In this document: positions 46,453-60,489 of the stretch, piece after piece
How the letters are laid out: each line of letters opens with the position of its first letter
Position numbering within the stretch: the stretch's first letter is position 1
Origin: a virus
Strand: one strand, 5' to 3'
IMG/VR virus record: IMGVR_UViG_3300033273_000282
Span: 1 to 64,000 of that record
DNA: 64,000 nt
Notes under the pieces: model-generated
What the model was told of the DNA's origin: nothing
The model's database searches: none
Seen by the model: only the letters and a program-made list of their open reading frames with translations
Position numbers and translations under genes: made by a program

Positions 46453-47361
46453 ATGGCTAGTATTTTAGAAGTAAGTGAGATTAGAGCTGCTGGGGGATCC
46501 ACAGCTCTGTCGCTTAATGCTGATGGCACAGTCAACATGCCACAGGGTATGACGATTGGAGGCACCGATCCTTTTAGTCAACTCGGCATTGAAAGAGGTA
46601 ATCGTGCTGCTCGATCCACCAACGCTGGAGAAGCTGTTAGGTATAATGATGAAGATCATCAACTAGAGCATTACTATGAAAATCCAGCAGGATCTCCTTC
46701 GACAGCTTTGTGGGTTCCTGTTGGCGGCAGAAAATTGGTTGCCTGGGTTGAAAGATCTGATTCTTTCGGCAGTGTTGATATTGTTTGGGGTCCTGGTACA
46801 ACTGCCAACCCACCACAATTCTATCACTCGTATGAAATTGTAATGAACTTCTATGAGCAAGGTGGTGGTAATGGTGAGTATTACTGTCGCTTTATTAAAG
46901 CAGATGGTAGTGTAGATACATCCACTAACTATTTCCACATGGGTTCTGGTTGGCACGCTAATGATGGTCGTCCTAGAGATGCTTCAGGAACTGGTGGTAG
47001 AAGCTACTTCCAGATTACTACATTGAATAATAGTTATGAACTACAGTCAAACGGCGAAGCTTCTTGGTCTACTCATTTGTGGGTAGGAAATACACCAAAT
47101 AGTTCTACAGCTAACTATTGGTCATTCTTCTATCATGGTGGAGGTGCTACAGAACAAAATGGTGGAGCATACTATGGAGGTGGTACTTGGAGAGGTGCTT
47201 CCCAATATAACGGCACTGGATATCCTTTGAGTGGAATTAGAGTTTATAACAACCAAAACATGAGAGGTGTTTCTAATGGTTGTAACTTTGCTTGTGCTGT
47301 TTATGCTACTCAACCATCTATTAGGGACTACCCTGCTGCTGGTCCATACATGAATGTTTGA
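46453..47361 (+). CDS. tail-fibre/adhesin-like virion protein
   Basis: 302 residues. The N-terminal MASILEVSEIRAAGGSTALS is a common start of phage fibre proteins. The C-terminal 200 residues are Gly/Tyr/Asn/Trp-rich (GGGATEQNGGAYYGGGTWRG), like a surface-exposed receptor-binding head, and contain an SGIRVYNNQNMRG strand pair near the end. Own double late promoter directly after the giant fibre. It may form the distal tip or a short fibre. No enzyme motif. Confidence 0.65.
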   Translation: MASILEVSEIRAAGGSTALSLNADGTVNMPQGMTIGGTDPFSQLGIERGNRAARSTNAGEAVRYNDEDHQLEHYYENPAGSPSTALWVPVGGRKLVAWVERSDSFGSVDIVWGPGTTANPPQFYHSYEIVMNFYEQGGGNGEYYCRFIKADGSVDTSTNYFHMGSGWHANDGRPRDASGTGGRSYFQITTLNNSYELQSNGEASWSTHLWVGNTPNSSTANYWSFFYHGGGATEQNGGAYYGGGTWRGASQYNGTGYPLSGIRVYNNQNMRGVSNGCNFACAVYATQPSIRDYPAAGPYMNV

Positions 47362-47390: not shown

Positions 47391-47747
47391 ATGAAAAAAC
47401 TAAGAGAAATTACTAGAGAAGAAAAAATTAATTTTTATTGGAATCTAGGAGAAAGACCAGAAAATTATACCCACGTACATGGTGATGGTACATCAAGACC
47501 ATACACTCGGGAAGAATGGGAGGACATGATTTGGGAGCACAGAAGACATCCAGATCTATACAACAAAGATCTTTCATACATTGGTAAGCGTAGAGAGAAA
47601 TATCCCGATGAAACAGAGCAAATTGATGCTATCTGGAAAATTCTCAAGCACCTAAGAGACAATGGTACTGACCTTGGTCCAGAGGGAGCGGTGCTTGACG
47701 AAATCTTAAGTGTAAAAACATCTATTAGAAAACCCTCTGGTCTGTGA
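47391..47747 (+). CDS. probable tail-fibre assembly chaperone
   Basis: 118 residues from the ATG at 47391; the open frame extends upstream but the ATG after ATTTAAAGAA is more natural. The C-terminal YPDETEQIDAIWKILKHLRD ... VLDEILSVKTSIRKP resembles the YPxxxDQLDALWH...IQAVKxKYPK ending seen in small proteins encoded beside fibre genes (XkdW/tail-fibre-assembly type). Charged, helical, no transmembrane span. Position right after the adhesins supports an accessory folding role. Confidence 0.5.
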   Translation: MKKLREITREEKINFYWNLGERPENYTHVHGDGTSRPYTREEWEDMIWEHRRHPDLYNKDLSYIGKRREKYPDETEQIDAIWKILKHLRDNGTDLGPEGAVLDEILSVKTSIRKPSGL

Positions 47748-47772: not shown

Positions 47773-48354
47773 ATGGATTTATTTGTTACTAAAGTATCTG
47801 ACTTTATCATTAAAGACATTGATACGATCCGATATGATATTATTAACTATATCCTAGAGGAAGAATCTAGTGCTCCTGTACGTGGTTCATATTCTATGAG
47901 AGGAGACACTGGATACCACTCCAGTGATACTTTGTGTGATCTAAAAACAGATTGGTCAAAAGATCTGAAGCTTCTTCTACATAGAATGCTTGAAGAACAT
48001 GCTGTTTCACAAGACAGAGCAATCCCACCCCCAGAACTTTCTAGGATTAATTGTTGGGGTATGGTGATGAGGAAAGGAGATCATTCTGTTTTCCACAACC
48101 ATCCATCTTGTATGTATAGCGGAGTGCTGTACTTAGATGTTCCTGAAGGTTTAGAAAAAGAAGGGCAACTTGTTTTTGTGGATCCAAGAACTCAAACCAG
48201 AGTTGGTAAGTATTACGATCACACGGTGTATCATAAAATTACTCCTAAGATTGGTCATGCCTATGTTTTCCCAAATTGGTTGGATCATTATGTAGAACCA
48301 CATTTTTGTGAAGGTGATCGAATCTCTATTTCGTTTAACCTTGCCGAGTTTTGA
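47773..48354 (+). CDS. 2-oxoglutarate/Fe(II) oxygenase (TIGR02466 type)
   Basis: 193 residues. GDHSVFHNHPSCMYSGVLYL with candidate iron ligands H108/H110, LVFVDPRTQ, the distal H172 (DHYVEP) and a 2-oxoglutarate-binding Arg in RISISFN match the putative 2OG-Fe(II) oxygenases grouped as TIGR02466. Members are presumed to hydroxylate proteins or small molecules; substrates are unknown. First of four consecutive oxygenase genes between the fibre and neck genes. Position suggests a virion-related substrate, but that is inference. Confidence 0.75.
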   Translation: MDLFVTKVSDFIIKDIDTIRYDIINYILEEESSAPVRGSYSMRGDTGYHSSDTLCDLKTDWSKDLKLLLHRMLEEHAVSQDRAIPPPELSRINCWGMVMRKGDHSVFHNHPSCMYSGVLYLDVPEGLEKEGQLVFVDPRTQTRVGKYYDHTVYHKITPKIGHAYVFPNWLDHYVEPHFCEGDRISISFNLAEF

Positions 48355-48360
48355 TAAATA
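48354..48360 (+). promoter_or_regulatory. late promoter motif ATAAATA
   Basis: TTGATAAATATT, overlapping the stop of the first oxygenase and 29 bases before the ATG at 48390. Confidence 0.5.
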
Positions 48361-48389
48361 TTTAAACACACCATTACTACGTGATAACA

Positions 48390-48578
48390 ATGGACACAGC
48401 AGAACTTAGAAAAAACTTTGACGATCAACTTGCTAACACTGATAAGCAAATTGCTGAACTAGAAGCAAACCTCGCCAAAGCAAAAGAATATAGACTAAAG
48501 TTGGTTGGTGGTCTAGAAACCCTAGATCTACTCAATCCCAAAGAAGAAACACCTGCTGAAGAACCAGCAGCAGAATGA
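48390..48578 (+). CDS. small coiled-coil protein
   Basis: 62 residues. One long helix with heptads (LRKNFDDQLANTDKQIAELE, then NLAKAKEYRLKLVGGLETL) followed by an acidic, Ala/Pro-rich tail. GTG at 48381 is an alternative start. It overlaps the next oxygenase gene by four bases (ATGATAA). An oligomerising adaptor is plausible; no family recognised. Confidence 0.6.
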   Translation: MDTAELRKNFDDQLANTDKQIAELEANLAKAKEYRLKLVGGLETLDLLNPKEETPAEEPAAE

Positions 48579-49273
48579 TAAACGCTAAAGATTTTGACAT
48601 CGACCCCTCATCTTGGGAGGTCGATGTTCTTCATATTGGACAGTCTCAAAATAGATTGGTGAAGATTAGAAACTTTTTCTCTAACCCTGATAAGGTTAGA
48701 GAAATTGGTATGCAAGCAGAACTGAAGAGCACTATCATGGGAGAAGTCTCTGCCATTCCTGGATACACAGGTAGGATAGGTGGAGTTGACATGAAGTTCT
48801 TTACTAATTTCAGAACTCCAATACTAGAAAGAATGGCTGCTCCCATGACCATTCTACACAATCCTAAACTAAGCATCTTTACAATACAAAGATATAAACC
48901 AGGGACTGAGTGTAGAGTTATGAGCATGTATCCACATGTAGATTGGATGCACTATGCTTGTGTGCTATCATTGAACACAGAAGAAGAATTAGCAGGCACT
49001 GATAGTGGCACAGGGTTCTGTAGACAGATTGAAACTGGTATGGAACACACTTGTTCCGACATCAATTATCGCCACCTTAGAGCAAGGAACCTGGATGAAT
49101 CTATGACTACTCTAGACCCTTCTACATTTGATAGAAAGGGTTGGGAGTTGTACCACATAGAACCACATGAATATAATACTCTGGTAATATACGAGGGTAA
49201 TGTCTGGCACATACCATATTTCAATACCAACTGGAAATGTGATCGATTAACCTTTAATGGATTTTTGAAATGA
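48575..49273 (+). CDS. 2OG-Fe(II) oxygenase-like protein (DUF6445 type)
   Basis: 232 residues. PHVDWMHYACVLSLN with H121-x-D123, then GTDSGTGFCRQ, and the distal GNVWHIPYFN with H212 follow the double-stranded beta-helix oxygenase layout; the overall pattern fits the family I recall as DUF6445. N-terminal region with SNPDKVREIGMQAE is typical of phage P4H-like enzymes. Reaction presumably hydroxylation; substrate unknown. Coupled to both neighbours by 4-base overlaps. Confidence 0.65.
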   Translation: MINAKDFDIDPSSWEVDVLHIGQSQNRLVKIRNFFSNPDKVREIGMQAELKSTIMGEVSAIPGYTGRIGGVDMKFFTNFRTPILERMAAPMTILHNPKLSIFTIQRYKPGTECRVMSMYPHVDWMHYACVLSLNTEEELAGTDSGTGFCRQIETGMEHTCSDINYRHLRARNLDESMTTLDPSTFDRKGWELYHIEPHEYNTLVIYEGNVWHIPYFNTNWKCDRLTFNGFLK

Positions 49274-49812
49274 CCTTTGATGCTATTTGGTATAAAACTA
49301 CTTTACCTAAAACTGTTATCAATTCTTTTTTAGAAGAATCTAAATTGTATGATACAGAACAAGCATCTTTGAGAGAAGATGTTATAAATTTAGAAACTAG
49401 AGATAGTAAAATTGCTTGGTTATCCAGTAATCATTGGATTGCTGGATTTTGTTATCATTATGTTTTACAAGCAAACGAAGGTAATTTTGGGTATGATATA
49501 AAACCTTTTGGAGATAAGTTTTTACAGTATACAACTTACTCGGAGGGTGAGTATTATGATTGGCATGTAGATACTATTAGAAACCAAGACTCAATAAGAA
49601 AATTATCTTTCACTCTACAGTTATCAGATCCAGAAGATTATTCTGGTGGTGAGTTACAATTTATTGATGAAGGAGATCAAATGTTTTTTGCTCCGAAAGA
49701 ACGAGGTACTATTATTGTCTTTGACAGTAGGGTAAAACACCGTGTGAAGAAAGTTAGATCTGGTTGTAGAAAATCTTTGGTTGGTTGGGTAGAAGGTCCG
49801 AGATGGAAGTAA
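49270..49812 (+). CDS. PKHD-type prolyl-hydroxylase-like oxygenase
   Basis: 180 residues. All expected residues are visible: H99-x-D101 (YDWHVDT), H157 (RVKHRVKKV) and R167 (CRKSLVGWVEGP), with LSFTLQLSDPEDYSGGELQF between. This is the PKHD/PiuC-like layout, whose members use 2-oxoglutarate, O2 and Fe(II). Starts on the stop of the previous gene (ATGA). Substrate unknown. Confidence 0.85.
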   Translation: MTFDAIWYKTTLPKTVINSFLEESKLYDTEQASLREDVINLETRDSKIAWLSSNHWIAGFCYHYVLQANEGNFGYDIKPFGDKFLQYTTYSEGEYYDWHVDTIRNQDSIRKLSFTLQLSDPEDYSGGELQFIDEGDQMFFAPKERGTIIVFDSRVKHRVKKVRSGCRKSLVGWVEGPRWK

Positions 49813-50330
49813 GAAAAGATTGGTTAGTCTTAGAGTGTCAAGGTCTTCTGGATGTCTCTAGTTTTATAGAATCTCCTCCAATAAAACTAGAAAGAGAAAC
49901 ATGTGATATCATTCAAGGAAAAACTTCTTCTAGATACAACCACCCAGCATTTAAAGAATTACACTACGATTGTAAGAACAAACTAGAGTATCTACTACAG
50001 GAAAAATTATATCCTACTTACTACTTCGATAGATTTTATTTCAATGGTAGTAGAATGGATAGACATGTAGATAGAGAATCTTGTGAGATTAGTGTGTCTG
50101 TAAATATAAGTTCTAACTTAGATCATGATTGGGGTCTTTGGTTTGAACTAGAGGATTCGTTTGAGTGTTTTACTTCTCCTGGAGATGCTATAATTTACCG
50201 AGGAATAGAGGTCCCTCACTGGAGAAAGAAAATGGTTGGAAACAAGAAATCGTATTTCCACCAGTTGTTCTTACACTACGTTAGAGCAGATGGACACTAC
50301 CTAGAATACGCCTATGACAGAAGATCCTAA
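49803..50330 (+). CDS. 2OG-Fe(II) oxygenase, P4H-like
   Basis: 175 residues from the ATG at 49803, overlapping the previous gene by ten bases; the longer frame needs a TTG start. H88-x-D90 (DRHVDRESCEISVSVNI) and distal H139 (GIEVPHWRKKM) mark the oxygenase core; FTSPGDAIIYRG is the usual strand before the distal His. The C-terminal LHYVRADGHYLEYAYD is also typical. Last of the cluster; a late promoter for gp13 overlaps its stop. Confidence 0.75.
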   Translation: MEVRKDWLVLECQGLLDVSSFIESPPIKLERETCDIIQGKTSSRYNHPAFKELHYDCKNKLEYLLQEKLYPTYYFDRFYFNGSRMDRHVDRESCEISVSVNISSNLDHDWGLWFELEDSFECFTSPGDAIIYRGIEVPHWRKKMVGNKKSYFHQLFLHYVRADGHYLEYAYDRRS

Positions 50331-50333
50331 ATA
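50327..50333 (+). promoter_or_regulatory. late promoter motif CTAAATA before gp13
   Basis: ATCCTAAATAGT, overlapping the stop of the last oxygenase, 25 bases before the gp13 start; it should drive gp13-gp16. Confidence 0.6.
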
Positions 50334-50358: not shown

Positions 50359-51189
50359 ATGGCATCGCCAAGCACTAGGCAGGAACTAATTGATTACTGT
50401 AAACGTCAGTTGGGTGCTCCTGTATTACAAATTAACATTGCTGATGAGCAAACTAGTGACATCATCGATGATGCCATTCAGTTCTATCACGAACATCATT
50501 TTGATGGACTTGAGAAAATGTATCTCAAGCACAATATCACTGATCTAGACATCACTAGATTTACCACACAAAATGAGGTCACTCAGACTGTAGACCCAGA
50601 TGCTACTGGTTGGGAGCACAGAAAGAACTTCCTAGAGATCCCAGAGCATGTGATGGGCATCAGTAAAGTATTTGGTGTATCATCCAATTTCGTTCGTAAT
50701 GAACTGTTTGGTATGACAAACCAGTTCTTCCTGATGGACATGTTCTCCTTCTCGAATGGATTCAAGATGGGGAACTTTGACTTGACCAACTTCTATATGG
50801 TCAAGCAGTATTTTGAAACTCTGGATCAAGTTATCAATACTGGTTCTTTTGTACAGTATAGATTCACCAAAAGGCAGGACAGACTGTACATTGACATTGA
50901 TACCAGCAGACTAGTAGAAGGTAACTGGATTCTAATCGATTGCTGGGGTGCTGTAGATCCAGAAACATACACCCAAGTATATAATGATTCATTTGTAAAG
51001 AGGTATGCTACTGCTCTAATGAAGAGGCAGTGGGGAGCAAACCTCATCAAATTTAATAATGTACAACTTCCTGGTGGCATCACTCTCAATGGTCGTCAGA
51101 TCTGGGAGGATGGAAACAGAGAAGTTCAGCAACTTGAGTCAGAAATGCTGACCAAGTATTCCCTTCCACCTATGGATATGATCGGATAA
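50359..51189 (+). CDS. 13: neck protein gp13
   Basis: 276 residues (T4 gp13: 309). Starts RQELIDYCKRQLGAPVLQIN with DEQTSDIIDDAIQFYHEHHF, the typical gp13 N-terminus, and ends with a conserved QLESEMLTKYSLPPMDMIG tail. gp13 forms part of the neck that closes the filled head and accepts the tail. First gene of the gp13-14-15-16 operon, with one base between it and gp14. Confident. Confidence 0.9.
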   Translation: MASPSTRQELIDYCKRQLGAPVLQINIADEQTSDIIDDAIQFYHEHHFDGLEKMYLKHNITDLDITRFTTQNEVTQTVDPDATGWEHRKNFLEIPEHVMGISKVFGVSSNFVRNELFGMTNQFFLMDMFSFSNGFKMGNFDLTNFYMVKQYFETLDQVINTGSFVQYRFTKRQDRLYIDIDTSRLVEGNWILIDCWGAVDPETYTQVYNDSFVKRYATALMKRQWGANLIKFNNVQLPGGITLNGRQIWEDGNREVQQLESEMLTKYSLPPMDMIG

Positions 51190-59674: not shown

Positions 59675-59887
59675 ATGGAAAACATCGAACAACACATTGA
59701 GAAGGACAAAGCGATTCTTCAAGATCCCACCCTCTCTCCACAGATGCGCCGACATACTGCTGAAGAGTTGAAAGAGCTTGAAGAATACGCAAAGCGTCAT
59801 CCAGACGATCATCATGATCCCACTCCATTGGAGTTGTATTGTGACACGCACCCTGGAGATCTGGAGTGTAGAGTATACGAAGACTGA
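59675..59887 (+). CDS. cp12: CP12, Calvin-cycle inhibitor
   Basis: 70 residues. The C-terminal ELYCDTHPGDLECRVYED has the paired Cys C56 and C65 eight residues apart and the ECRVY(D/E)D ending of CP12. The N-terminal Cys pair of host CP12 is absent; the helical middle (HTAEELKELEEYAKRHPDD) stands in for the AWDxVEEL region. CP12 ties up GAPDH and phosphoribulokinase. With zwf and gnd it would divert carbon to the pentose phosphate pathway. It ends on the start of the next gene (TGATGA). Confidence 0.88.
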   Translation: MENIEQHIEKDKAILQDPTLSPQMRRHTAEELKELEEYAKRHPDDHHDPTPLELYCDTHPGDLECRVYED

Positions 59888-60489
59888 TGAACTTTATTGG
59901 CATTTACGATGATTTCCTTACCAAAGAGGAATGTGAGATTGTTATCTCCTATTTTCATAAGAATAAAGAGAGACAAGAGGAGGGTCAGATTGGCTACGGG
60001 TTTGTGGATAAAGATCTAAAAGATTCAACAGATCTCTATTGCTTCTTTACTGACTCTCTATTCACCCACCAGATCCTCTACAAGGGCATTGAAACTGCCT
60101 TTAAGAAGTATGAGGAGGAACACCCCGCCTTCCAGTACACAGATCGTTTTCACCTGTGTGACGGGTTCAACATCCAAAAGTATGAGCCAGGGCAGGGATT
60201 CAAATTATGGCATCATGAGACTACCAACTTTGTAAACTATCCAAACCCCCAGACCACGAGAGCACTGGCATGGATGGTCAACTTGAACGATGTGCCCGAC
60301 GGAGGTACGATGTTCTTGGAGCAAGACTTTACAATGGAAGCAAAGACTGGTAGAGTGAGCATCTGGCCAGCAGCATGGACACATGTACATAAAGGTCAGG
60401 TTTCAGAACAGCACACTAAATACATCGCAACAGGTTGGTTTAATTATGACATCCCCAACTATGAACAAGACGTTCGTGATTTACAGTAA
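59887..60489 (+). CDS. 2OG-Fe(II) oxygenase, prolyl-4-hydroxylase-like
   Basis: 200 residues. IYDDFLTKEECEIVISYFHK is a typical P4H start; FNIQKYEPGQGFKLWHHETT gives an H109-x-E111 in place of the more common HxD; RALAWMVNLNDVPDGGTMFL and WPAAWTHVHKGQ (H166 or H168) follow, then TKYIATGWF with the 2-oxoglutarate Lys. Fifth oxygenase in the window but away from the other four. Its 3' end overlaps glutaredoxin by 29 bases. Substrate unknown. Confidence 0.85.
   Translation: MNFIGIYDDFLTKEECEIVISYFHKNKERQEEGQIGYGFVDKDLKDSTDLYCFFTDSLFTHQILYKGIETAFKKYEEEHPAFQYTDRFHLCDGFNIQKYEPGQGFKLWHHETTNFVNYPNPQTTRALAWMVNLNDVPDGGTMFLEQDFTMEAKTGRVSIWPAAWTHVHKGQVSEQHTKYIATGWFNYDIPNYEQDVRDLQ

Follow-up and report, generated by a model that had tools for sequence, protein, structure and literature searches.

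Four divergent genes of the 2OG-Fe(II) oxygenase superfamily between a fibre cassette and gp13 in a T4-like cyanophage

We found that a T4-like cyanophage genome of about 200 kb carries four divergent members of the 2OG-Fe(II) oxygenase (double-stranded beta-helix) superfamily, here termed ox1 to ox4, between a fibre cassette and the neck gene gp13. The first of them closes a fixed cassette of fib, PHROG_2504 and ox1, the last two form a widespread, almost obligate neighbour pair, and cc, ox2, ox3 and ox4 overlap one after another in a run that a conserved late-promoter-like motif precedes. The fixed cassette, the conserved pair and the late-type motif together favour late modification of fibre-associated virion proteins. 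Here we infer the chemistry, substrates and timing of each enzyme, and put at roughly 45% the probability that ox1 to ox4 hydroxylate such proteins late in infection, with ox3 and ox4 acting as partners.

Layout of the oxygenase row

Cyanophages and pelagiphages belong to the most abundant viruses, and 2OG oxygenases are among the commonest of their genes that lack an assigned function. The window analysed here spans the initial 64 kb of a virus record of 200,309 bp that is related to T4-like marine cyanophages. An earlier note on this DNA had described four consecutive, divergent oxygenases between fibre and neck genes, a coiled-coil gene among them and a fifth oxygenase farther on. All four ORFs were present on the + strand (Table 1), with cc (PHROG_580) between ox1 and ox2, and the flanks were confirmed as a 3787-aa fibre-like ORF with the PHROG_2415 and PHROG_2504 genes upstream and gp13 downstream. 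The fifth, ox5, proved real (PF13640, 36.2 bits), and pairwise identity among the five window oxygenases was 22–32%, which bears out the divergence. A profile search revealed at least 12 2OG-Fe(II) oxygenases in the genome; with its 12 scattered at random, four in five consecutive genes would be rare (P = 0.0055). The proposed coupling by overlaps was seen for cc and ox2 (4 nt), ox2 and ox3 (4 nt) and ox3 and ox4 (10 nt), and did not extend to ox1, which is 26 nt from cc and hence not overlap-coupled.

Table 1. Features in and around the oxygenase row (positions in the window)
Feature	Position	Strand	Description
fib	46453..47361	+	302-aa fibre-like protein, PHROG_2415 (function not assigned there); first in fib-small-ox1 cassette
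small gene	47391..47747	+	PHROG_2504, 118 aa counted from ATG; second in cassette
ox1	47773..48354	+	PF13759/TIGR02466 2OG-Fe(II) oxygenase; HxH...H, R183; PDB 3bvc, 2rg4
late-promoter-like motif GATAAATA	48353..48360	+	28 nt upstream of cc
cc	48381..48578	+	65-aa small coiled-coil-like protein, PHROG_580
ox2	48575..49273	+	DUF6445, PHROG_1644 'minor coat protein', apparent 2OG-Fe(II) oxygenase fold; H121xD123...H212...R224
ox3	49270..49812	+	PF13640, PKHD/P4H-like 2OG-Fe(II) oxygenase; H99xD101...H157...R167
ox4	49803..50330	+	PHROG_2954 'ferrochelatase', probable 2OG-Fe(II) oxygenase fold; H88xD90...H139
late-promoter-like motif CTAAATA	50327..50333	+	32 nt upstream of gp13
gp13 neck protein / head-tail adaptor Ad2	50359..51189	+	PHROG match; boundary of row
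ox5	59887..60489	+	PF13640 2OG-Fe(II) oxygenase, after CP12 gene; outside tandem

All four proteins keep the iron motif and distal His that had been reported, the motif being HxD in ox2, ox3 and ox4 but HxH in ox1. Profiles linked ox1 and ox3 to solved structures of the double-stranded beta-helix fold. ox1 matched PF13759 at 72.7 bits and TIGR02466 above its cut-off; across its relatives H108-x-H110...H172 was invariant or nearly so and R183, at +11 after the distal His, was kept in more than 90%. The HxH...H pattern is invariant in the ox1 family and recurs in the PDB relatives 3bvc and 2rg4. ox3 matched PF13640 at 60.1 bits, with H99 and H157 invariant among relatives and D101 and R167 (+10 after the distal His) conserved in more than 90%. 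Its best PDB relatives by profile were bacterial PKHD/PiuC proteins and prolyl 4-hydroxylases, and the best NCBIfam equivalog model for these enzymes reached 66.8 bits against a cut-off of 143; judged by sequence, ox3 is only a superfamily relative of PKHD/PiuC or prolyl 4-hydroxylase.

The genome has a further oxygenase cluster at record positions 164231-168031 (locus L183), where genes resembling ox1, ox2 and ox4 closely precede an ORF of 1713 aa. Inspection of translations between 54549 and 59316 of the window revealed plastocyanin-, gnd-, zwf- and psbD-like ORFs, a row of genes for photosynthesis and carbon metabolism, with CP12 farther along at 59675.

Folds behind the 'minor coat protein' and 'ferrochelatase' labels

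The sole Pfam match of ox2 was PF20043/DUF6445 (39.3 bits), and H121, D123, H212 and R224 (+12 after the distal His) were invariant in 29 relatives from viral contigs. A sequence search of the PDB with ox2 returned nothing relevant. When its AlphaFold (AF2) model (pLDDT 89.3) was searched with Foldseek, the top matches were lysyl hydroxylase LH3, a Pseudomonas P4H acting on EF-Tu, and PKHD proteins, suggesting that the PHROG_1644 'minor coat protein' is apparently misnamed and has a 2OG oxygenase fold. A tRNA-like stretch upstream of ox2 at two other loci (L059 and L060) was not confirmed by ARAGORN.

The ATG start of ox4 lies within a longer ORF started by TTG. The protein matched PHROG_2954 at 182.8 bits, no Pfam family with an E-value of 1 or less, and nothing relevant in a sequence search of the PDB; H88, D90 and H139 were invariant in 25 relatives from viral contigs. 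The Foldseek matches listed for its AF2 model (pLDDT 93.3) were 2OG oxygenases, with the EF-Tu-modifying Pseudomonas P4H at the top, and there was no ferrochelatase among the 50 listed. TM-scores for ox2 and ox4 were moderate, mostly 0.4–0.65 over the query, as expected of distant relatives, and profile–profile comparison of either protein with ox3 gave weak, shallow alignments. The three invariant Arg of ox4 (R77, R91 and R141) all lie outside the usual 2OG-carboxylate position, and no obvious 2OG-binding Arg was seen 8–14 residues past the distal His. This absence, together with HxH in ox1, leaves room for unusual chemistry.

With neither a family match nor a ferrochelatase among the 50 listed fold matches, ferrochelatase identity was not supported for ox4 (PHROG_2954, T4-GC 615). 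The 'ferrochelatases' of Syn9 and HTVC008M likewise lacked a Pfam match at the same E-value limit. On the modelled fold, the PHROG_2954/T4-GC 615 'ferrochelatase' of cyanophage and pelagiphage records, a label spread over about 150 phage records, is probably a 2OG-Fe(II) oxygenase. Other names in such rows also disagreed with profiles: the 'DNA endonuclease V' of Sf-FP1 (L257:4673-5260) matched PF13640 above the cut-off and that of Syn9, gp53 (L256:1797-2381), below it, and no endonuclease V family was matched by either.

Gene partnerships, timing and candidate substrates

A scan with PHROG_2504 yielded 16 loci, and in all 15 that were assessable fib lay upstream and an ox1-family gene directly downstream. 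This order held with or without gp13 nearby; at one locus (L352) a gap of about 1.6 kb separates fib from PHROG_2504. The pairing of ox3 with ox4 was examined by a scan with ox4 alone, which returned 52 loci, one of which starts inside ox4. In 50 of the remaining 51, ox3 closely preceded ox4 on the same strand, in most cases as its immediate neighbour, and one was without it; many of these loci are near-identical, with 33 distinct ox4-family sequences beneath them, weak ones counted. The pair occurs across several genome contexts, and T4-like cyanophage synteny may account for part of the conserved gene order. One half of the PHROG_3531 profile was matched by ox4 and the other by ox3 and ox5, hinting at fused relatives; single-frame fusions of ox3 and ox4 were absent from the fetched loci. 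A single locus, from a metagenome-assembled genome, held a bacterial relative of ox4, which gives the family an essentially viral appearance.

The ox3–ox4 pair also bears on published observations. Pelagiphages have been reported to carry 'ferrochelatase' adjacent to a 2OG oxygenase as partner genes (PMC9599517), and seasonal enrichment of 'ferrochelatase' plus oxygenase has been described, naming phrog2954 and phrog61 (PMC11561400). The pelagiphage pair is likewise PHROG_2954 (ox4) beside a 2OG oxygenase (ox3 in the window), so the ox3–ox4 neighbourhood would account for the published pattern, and both adjacency reports most likely describe this pair. As the 'ferrochelatase' would itself have the 2OG oxygenase fold, the pair would be two oxygenases rather than haem synthesis plus an oxygenase. 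If PHROG_2954 is truly a second 2OG oxygenase, published inferences on viral haem and iron metabolism need revision and the seasonal signal would reflect one two-enzyme unit.

With regard to timing, 15 of 20 distinct cc genes and 15 of 16 distinct gp13 genes have a TAAATA-type motif upstream, for cc mostly between -25 and -27; the motif resembles the T4 late promoter TATAAAT used by Sullivan et al. (PMC3037559). The cc gene itself is present before gp13 with or without ox2 to ox4. In the genome NATAAATA occurs 33 times on the + strand and once on the - strand, a bias that is weak evidence alone because most genes are on +, and 22 of the 33 + strand copies are followed by a gene start within the next 70 nt. 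Motif conservation at cc and gp13, together with this placement, makes late expression of cc-ox2-ox3-ox4 likely.

The earlier note had proposed hydroxylation of virion proteins, citing Pro/His-rich repeats and closeness to fibre genes. Short Pro/His repeats did not track the oxygenases, and the 3787-aa protein is average in Pro (4.4% versus 4.1% genome-wide) and low in His (1.1% versus 1.6%). Nor was closeness to long ORFs (900 aa or more, a crude proxy for fibre genes) significantly above chance over eight genomes, with 21 of 72 oxygenases (13.5 expected, P = 0.08) and 7 of 44 oxygenase clusters (7.4 expected) near one. Both reasons were thus lost, and the hydroxylation proposal is still the best guess on other evidence, namely the cassette, the late motif and PHROG_7759. 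Protein substrates are also favoured by the structures closest to ox2, ox3 and ox4, among them the protein hydroxylases LH3 and EF-Tu prolyl hydroxylase, and by a JmjC_2 gene in the comparable row of phage Sf-FP1.

Collagen-like Gly-X-Y fibres were rejected as a general substrate, being found in none of the eight genomes and only at some ox3–ox4 loci. At L042:1068-7331 and similar loci a very long fibre of this kind (about 350 triplets) lies a few genes upstream of the pair.

PHROG_7759 is a small protein with conserved Pro motifs and is very common, with at least 585 relatives in viral contigs. In other phages, among loci (L258-L337, 73 of 80 assessable) that were chosen by similarity to members found near oxygenases, an oxygenase was directly adjacent in 20 of the 24 with one within 5 kb, against 8.5 expected from shuffled positions; the oxygenase ORFs formed 26 clusters at 60% identity. 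We regard PHROG_7759 as a candidate for a partner, or a substrate, of 2OG oxygenases in phages. It is absent from the window's genome, so that the link is not directly relevant to the row described here.

Based on these data, we propose that the cc-ox2-ox3-ox4 run would be expressed late, together with virion genes, and that the enzymes, with 2-oxoglutarate, O2 and Fe(II), would hydroxylate certain residues in virion proteins associated with the fibres, either ahead of virion assembly or in its course. ox1 might act on fib or its small partner PHROG_2504, and ox3 and ox4 might act jointly on a shared protein substrate, as two subunits or in two steps. A broader and more tentative suggestion, which we hold to be possible but less likely than not, is that marine T4-like phages have dedicated virion-protein hydroxylation systems in which each oxygenase, alone or paired, travels with the small fibre-associated protein that it modifies; the units would be fib-PHROG_2504-ox1, PHROG_7759 with its adjacent oxygenases, and the ox3–ox4 pair. 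If so, fibre proteins would be oxidised late in infection, tuning stability or adsorption. The fixed gene partnerships supply concrete candidate substrates.

Other possible roles and comparison with known phages

Metabolic roles for cyanophage 2OG oxygenases were proposed by Sullivan et al. 2010 (PMC3037559). As auxiliary metabolic genes, the enzymes would have metabolites or proteins of the host as substrates and would draw down 2-oxoglutarate or redirect nitrogen and energy metabolism, consistent with the many copies per cyanophage, with published proposals (PMC3037559, PMC9602691) and with the position of ox5 beside CP12, a host-metabolism gene. We regard this as doubtful for the row, because a 2-oxoglutarate sink needs neither four divergent enzymes nor a conserved pair, a late-type motif precedes cc-ox2-ox3-ox4, and ox1 is fixedly linked to two virion-like genes. 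That same linkage, to protein-coding fibre-cassette genes rather than pathway genes, argues against tailoring of a small molecule, glycan or other virion-attached group by a pathway including halogenases and carbamoyltransferases. A 2021 comparative study proposed such tailoring for a cyanophage cluster with halogenase and 2OG oxygenases (PMC7824862), tryptophan halogenase genes stand in comparable rows of Sf-CH11 and Sf-FP1, and a Nol-like carbamoyltransferase adjoins the ox3–ox4 pair in S-SSM5; the window's row is without any such partner genes, and we consider the idea unlikely here.

2OG oxygenases that act in nucleic-acid modification or repair exist, and AlkB/ALKBH structures appeared lower down in the ox2 and ox4 fold searches. 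A role of this AlkB- or TET-like kind, an idea that PMC3037559 credits to Weigele et al., is quite improbable: no AlkB family scored above cut-off for any of the four, the best structural matches were protein hydroxylases or PKHD proteins, and the row sits away from replication genes. We likewise find it very improbable that one or more of the proteins are inactive and recruited as structural parts. The 'minor coat protein' label of ox2, the HxH that replaces HxD in the ox1 family and the missing distal Arg of ox4 would suit this idea, but the ligands of ox2, ox3 and ox4 are invariant or nearly so among distant relatives, a conservation for which proteins without activity would have no need. 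Late hydroxylation of fibre-associated virion proteins is thus the reading that we prefer.

Oxygenase rows are known in related phages. T4-like cyanophages were described with up to five 2OG oxygenases per genome (Sullivan et al. 2010, PMC3037559), and S-SCSM1 with 24 copies (PMC9602691). In Syn9, gp50–gp54 are recorded as a 2OG oxygenase, two endonucleases V, a minor coat protein and a ferrochelatase, and appear to be five oxygenases in a row, with Pfam or family-profile support clear for gp50, gp52 and gp54 and weaker for gp51 and gp53. HTVC008M has five in a row (gp068–gp072) between gp13 and a baseplate gene, and in S-SSM5 (042–049) and S-SM2 oxygenase runs adjoin tail genes. In two sponge-associated Synechococcus phages, the 2OG oxygenase rows that precede gp13 contain tryptophan halogenase genes (L114:4717-6273 and L257:496-2052). 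The Sf-FP1 row also includes a JmjC_2 (PF08007) protein, Sf-FP1_99 (L257:5241-5936). The JmjC_2 family includes known protein hydroxylases.

Among PDB relatives, the enzymes closest to ox3 by profile and to ox4 by fold are bacterial PKHD/PiuC proteins and prolyl 4-hydroxylases, such as the Pseudomonas P4H acting on EF-Tu; ox3 differs from them in scoring far below the NCBIfam equivalog cut-offs. The 2OG oxygenases of T4-like cyanophages share the families seen here (PF13640, PF13759, T4-GC 101/155/412/615), occur several per genome and have the gp13 and fibre regions among their known sites, as in the window. The runs of Syn9, HTVC008M and S-SSM5 are as long as the window's or longer, and in HTVC008M and S-SSM5 they too have baseplate, fibre or neck genes close by; as a row, the window's example is ordinary among these phages. 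The other runs differ in membership and order, and the names endonuclease V, minor coat protein and ferrochelatase are attached to several of their members. The window's run differs from earlier cyanophage descriptions in including a DUF6445 member, and earlier work had filed two of its four families under other names. In summary, the families are known; newer here are the ox3–ox4 pairing, the invariant fib-small-ox1 cassette and the conserved late-promoter-like motif before cc-ox2-ox3-ox4, and the comparison yields two useful corrections, to the PHROG_2954 and PHROG_1644 labels, along with testable gene partnerships.
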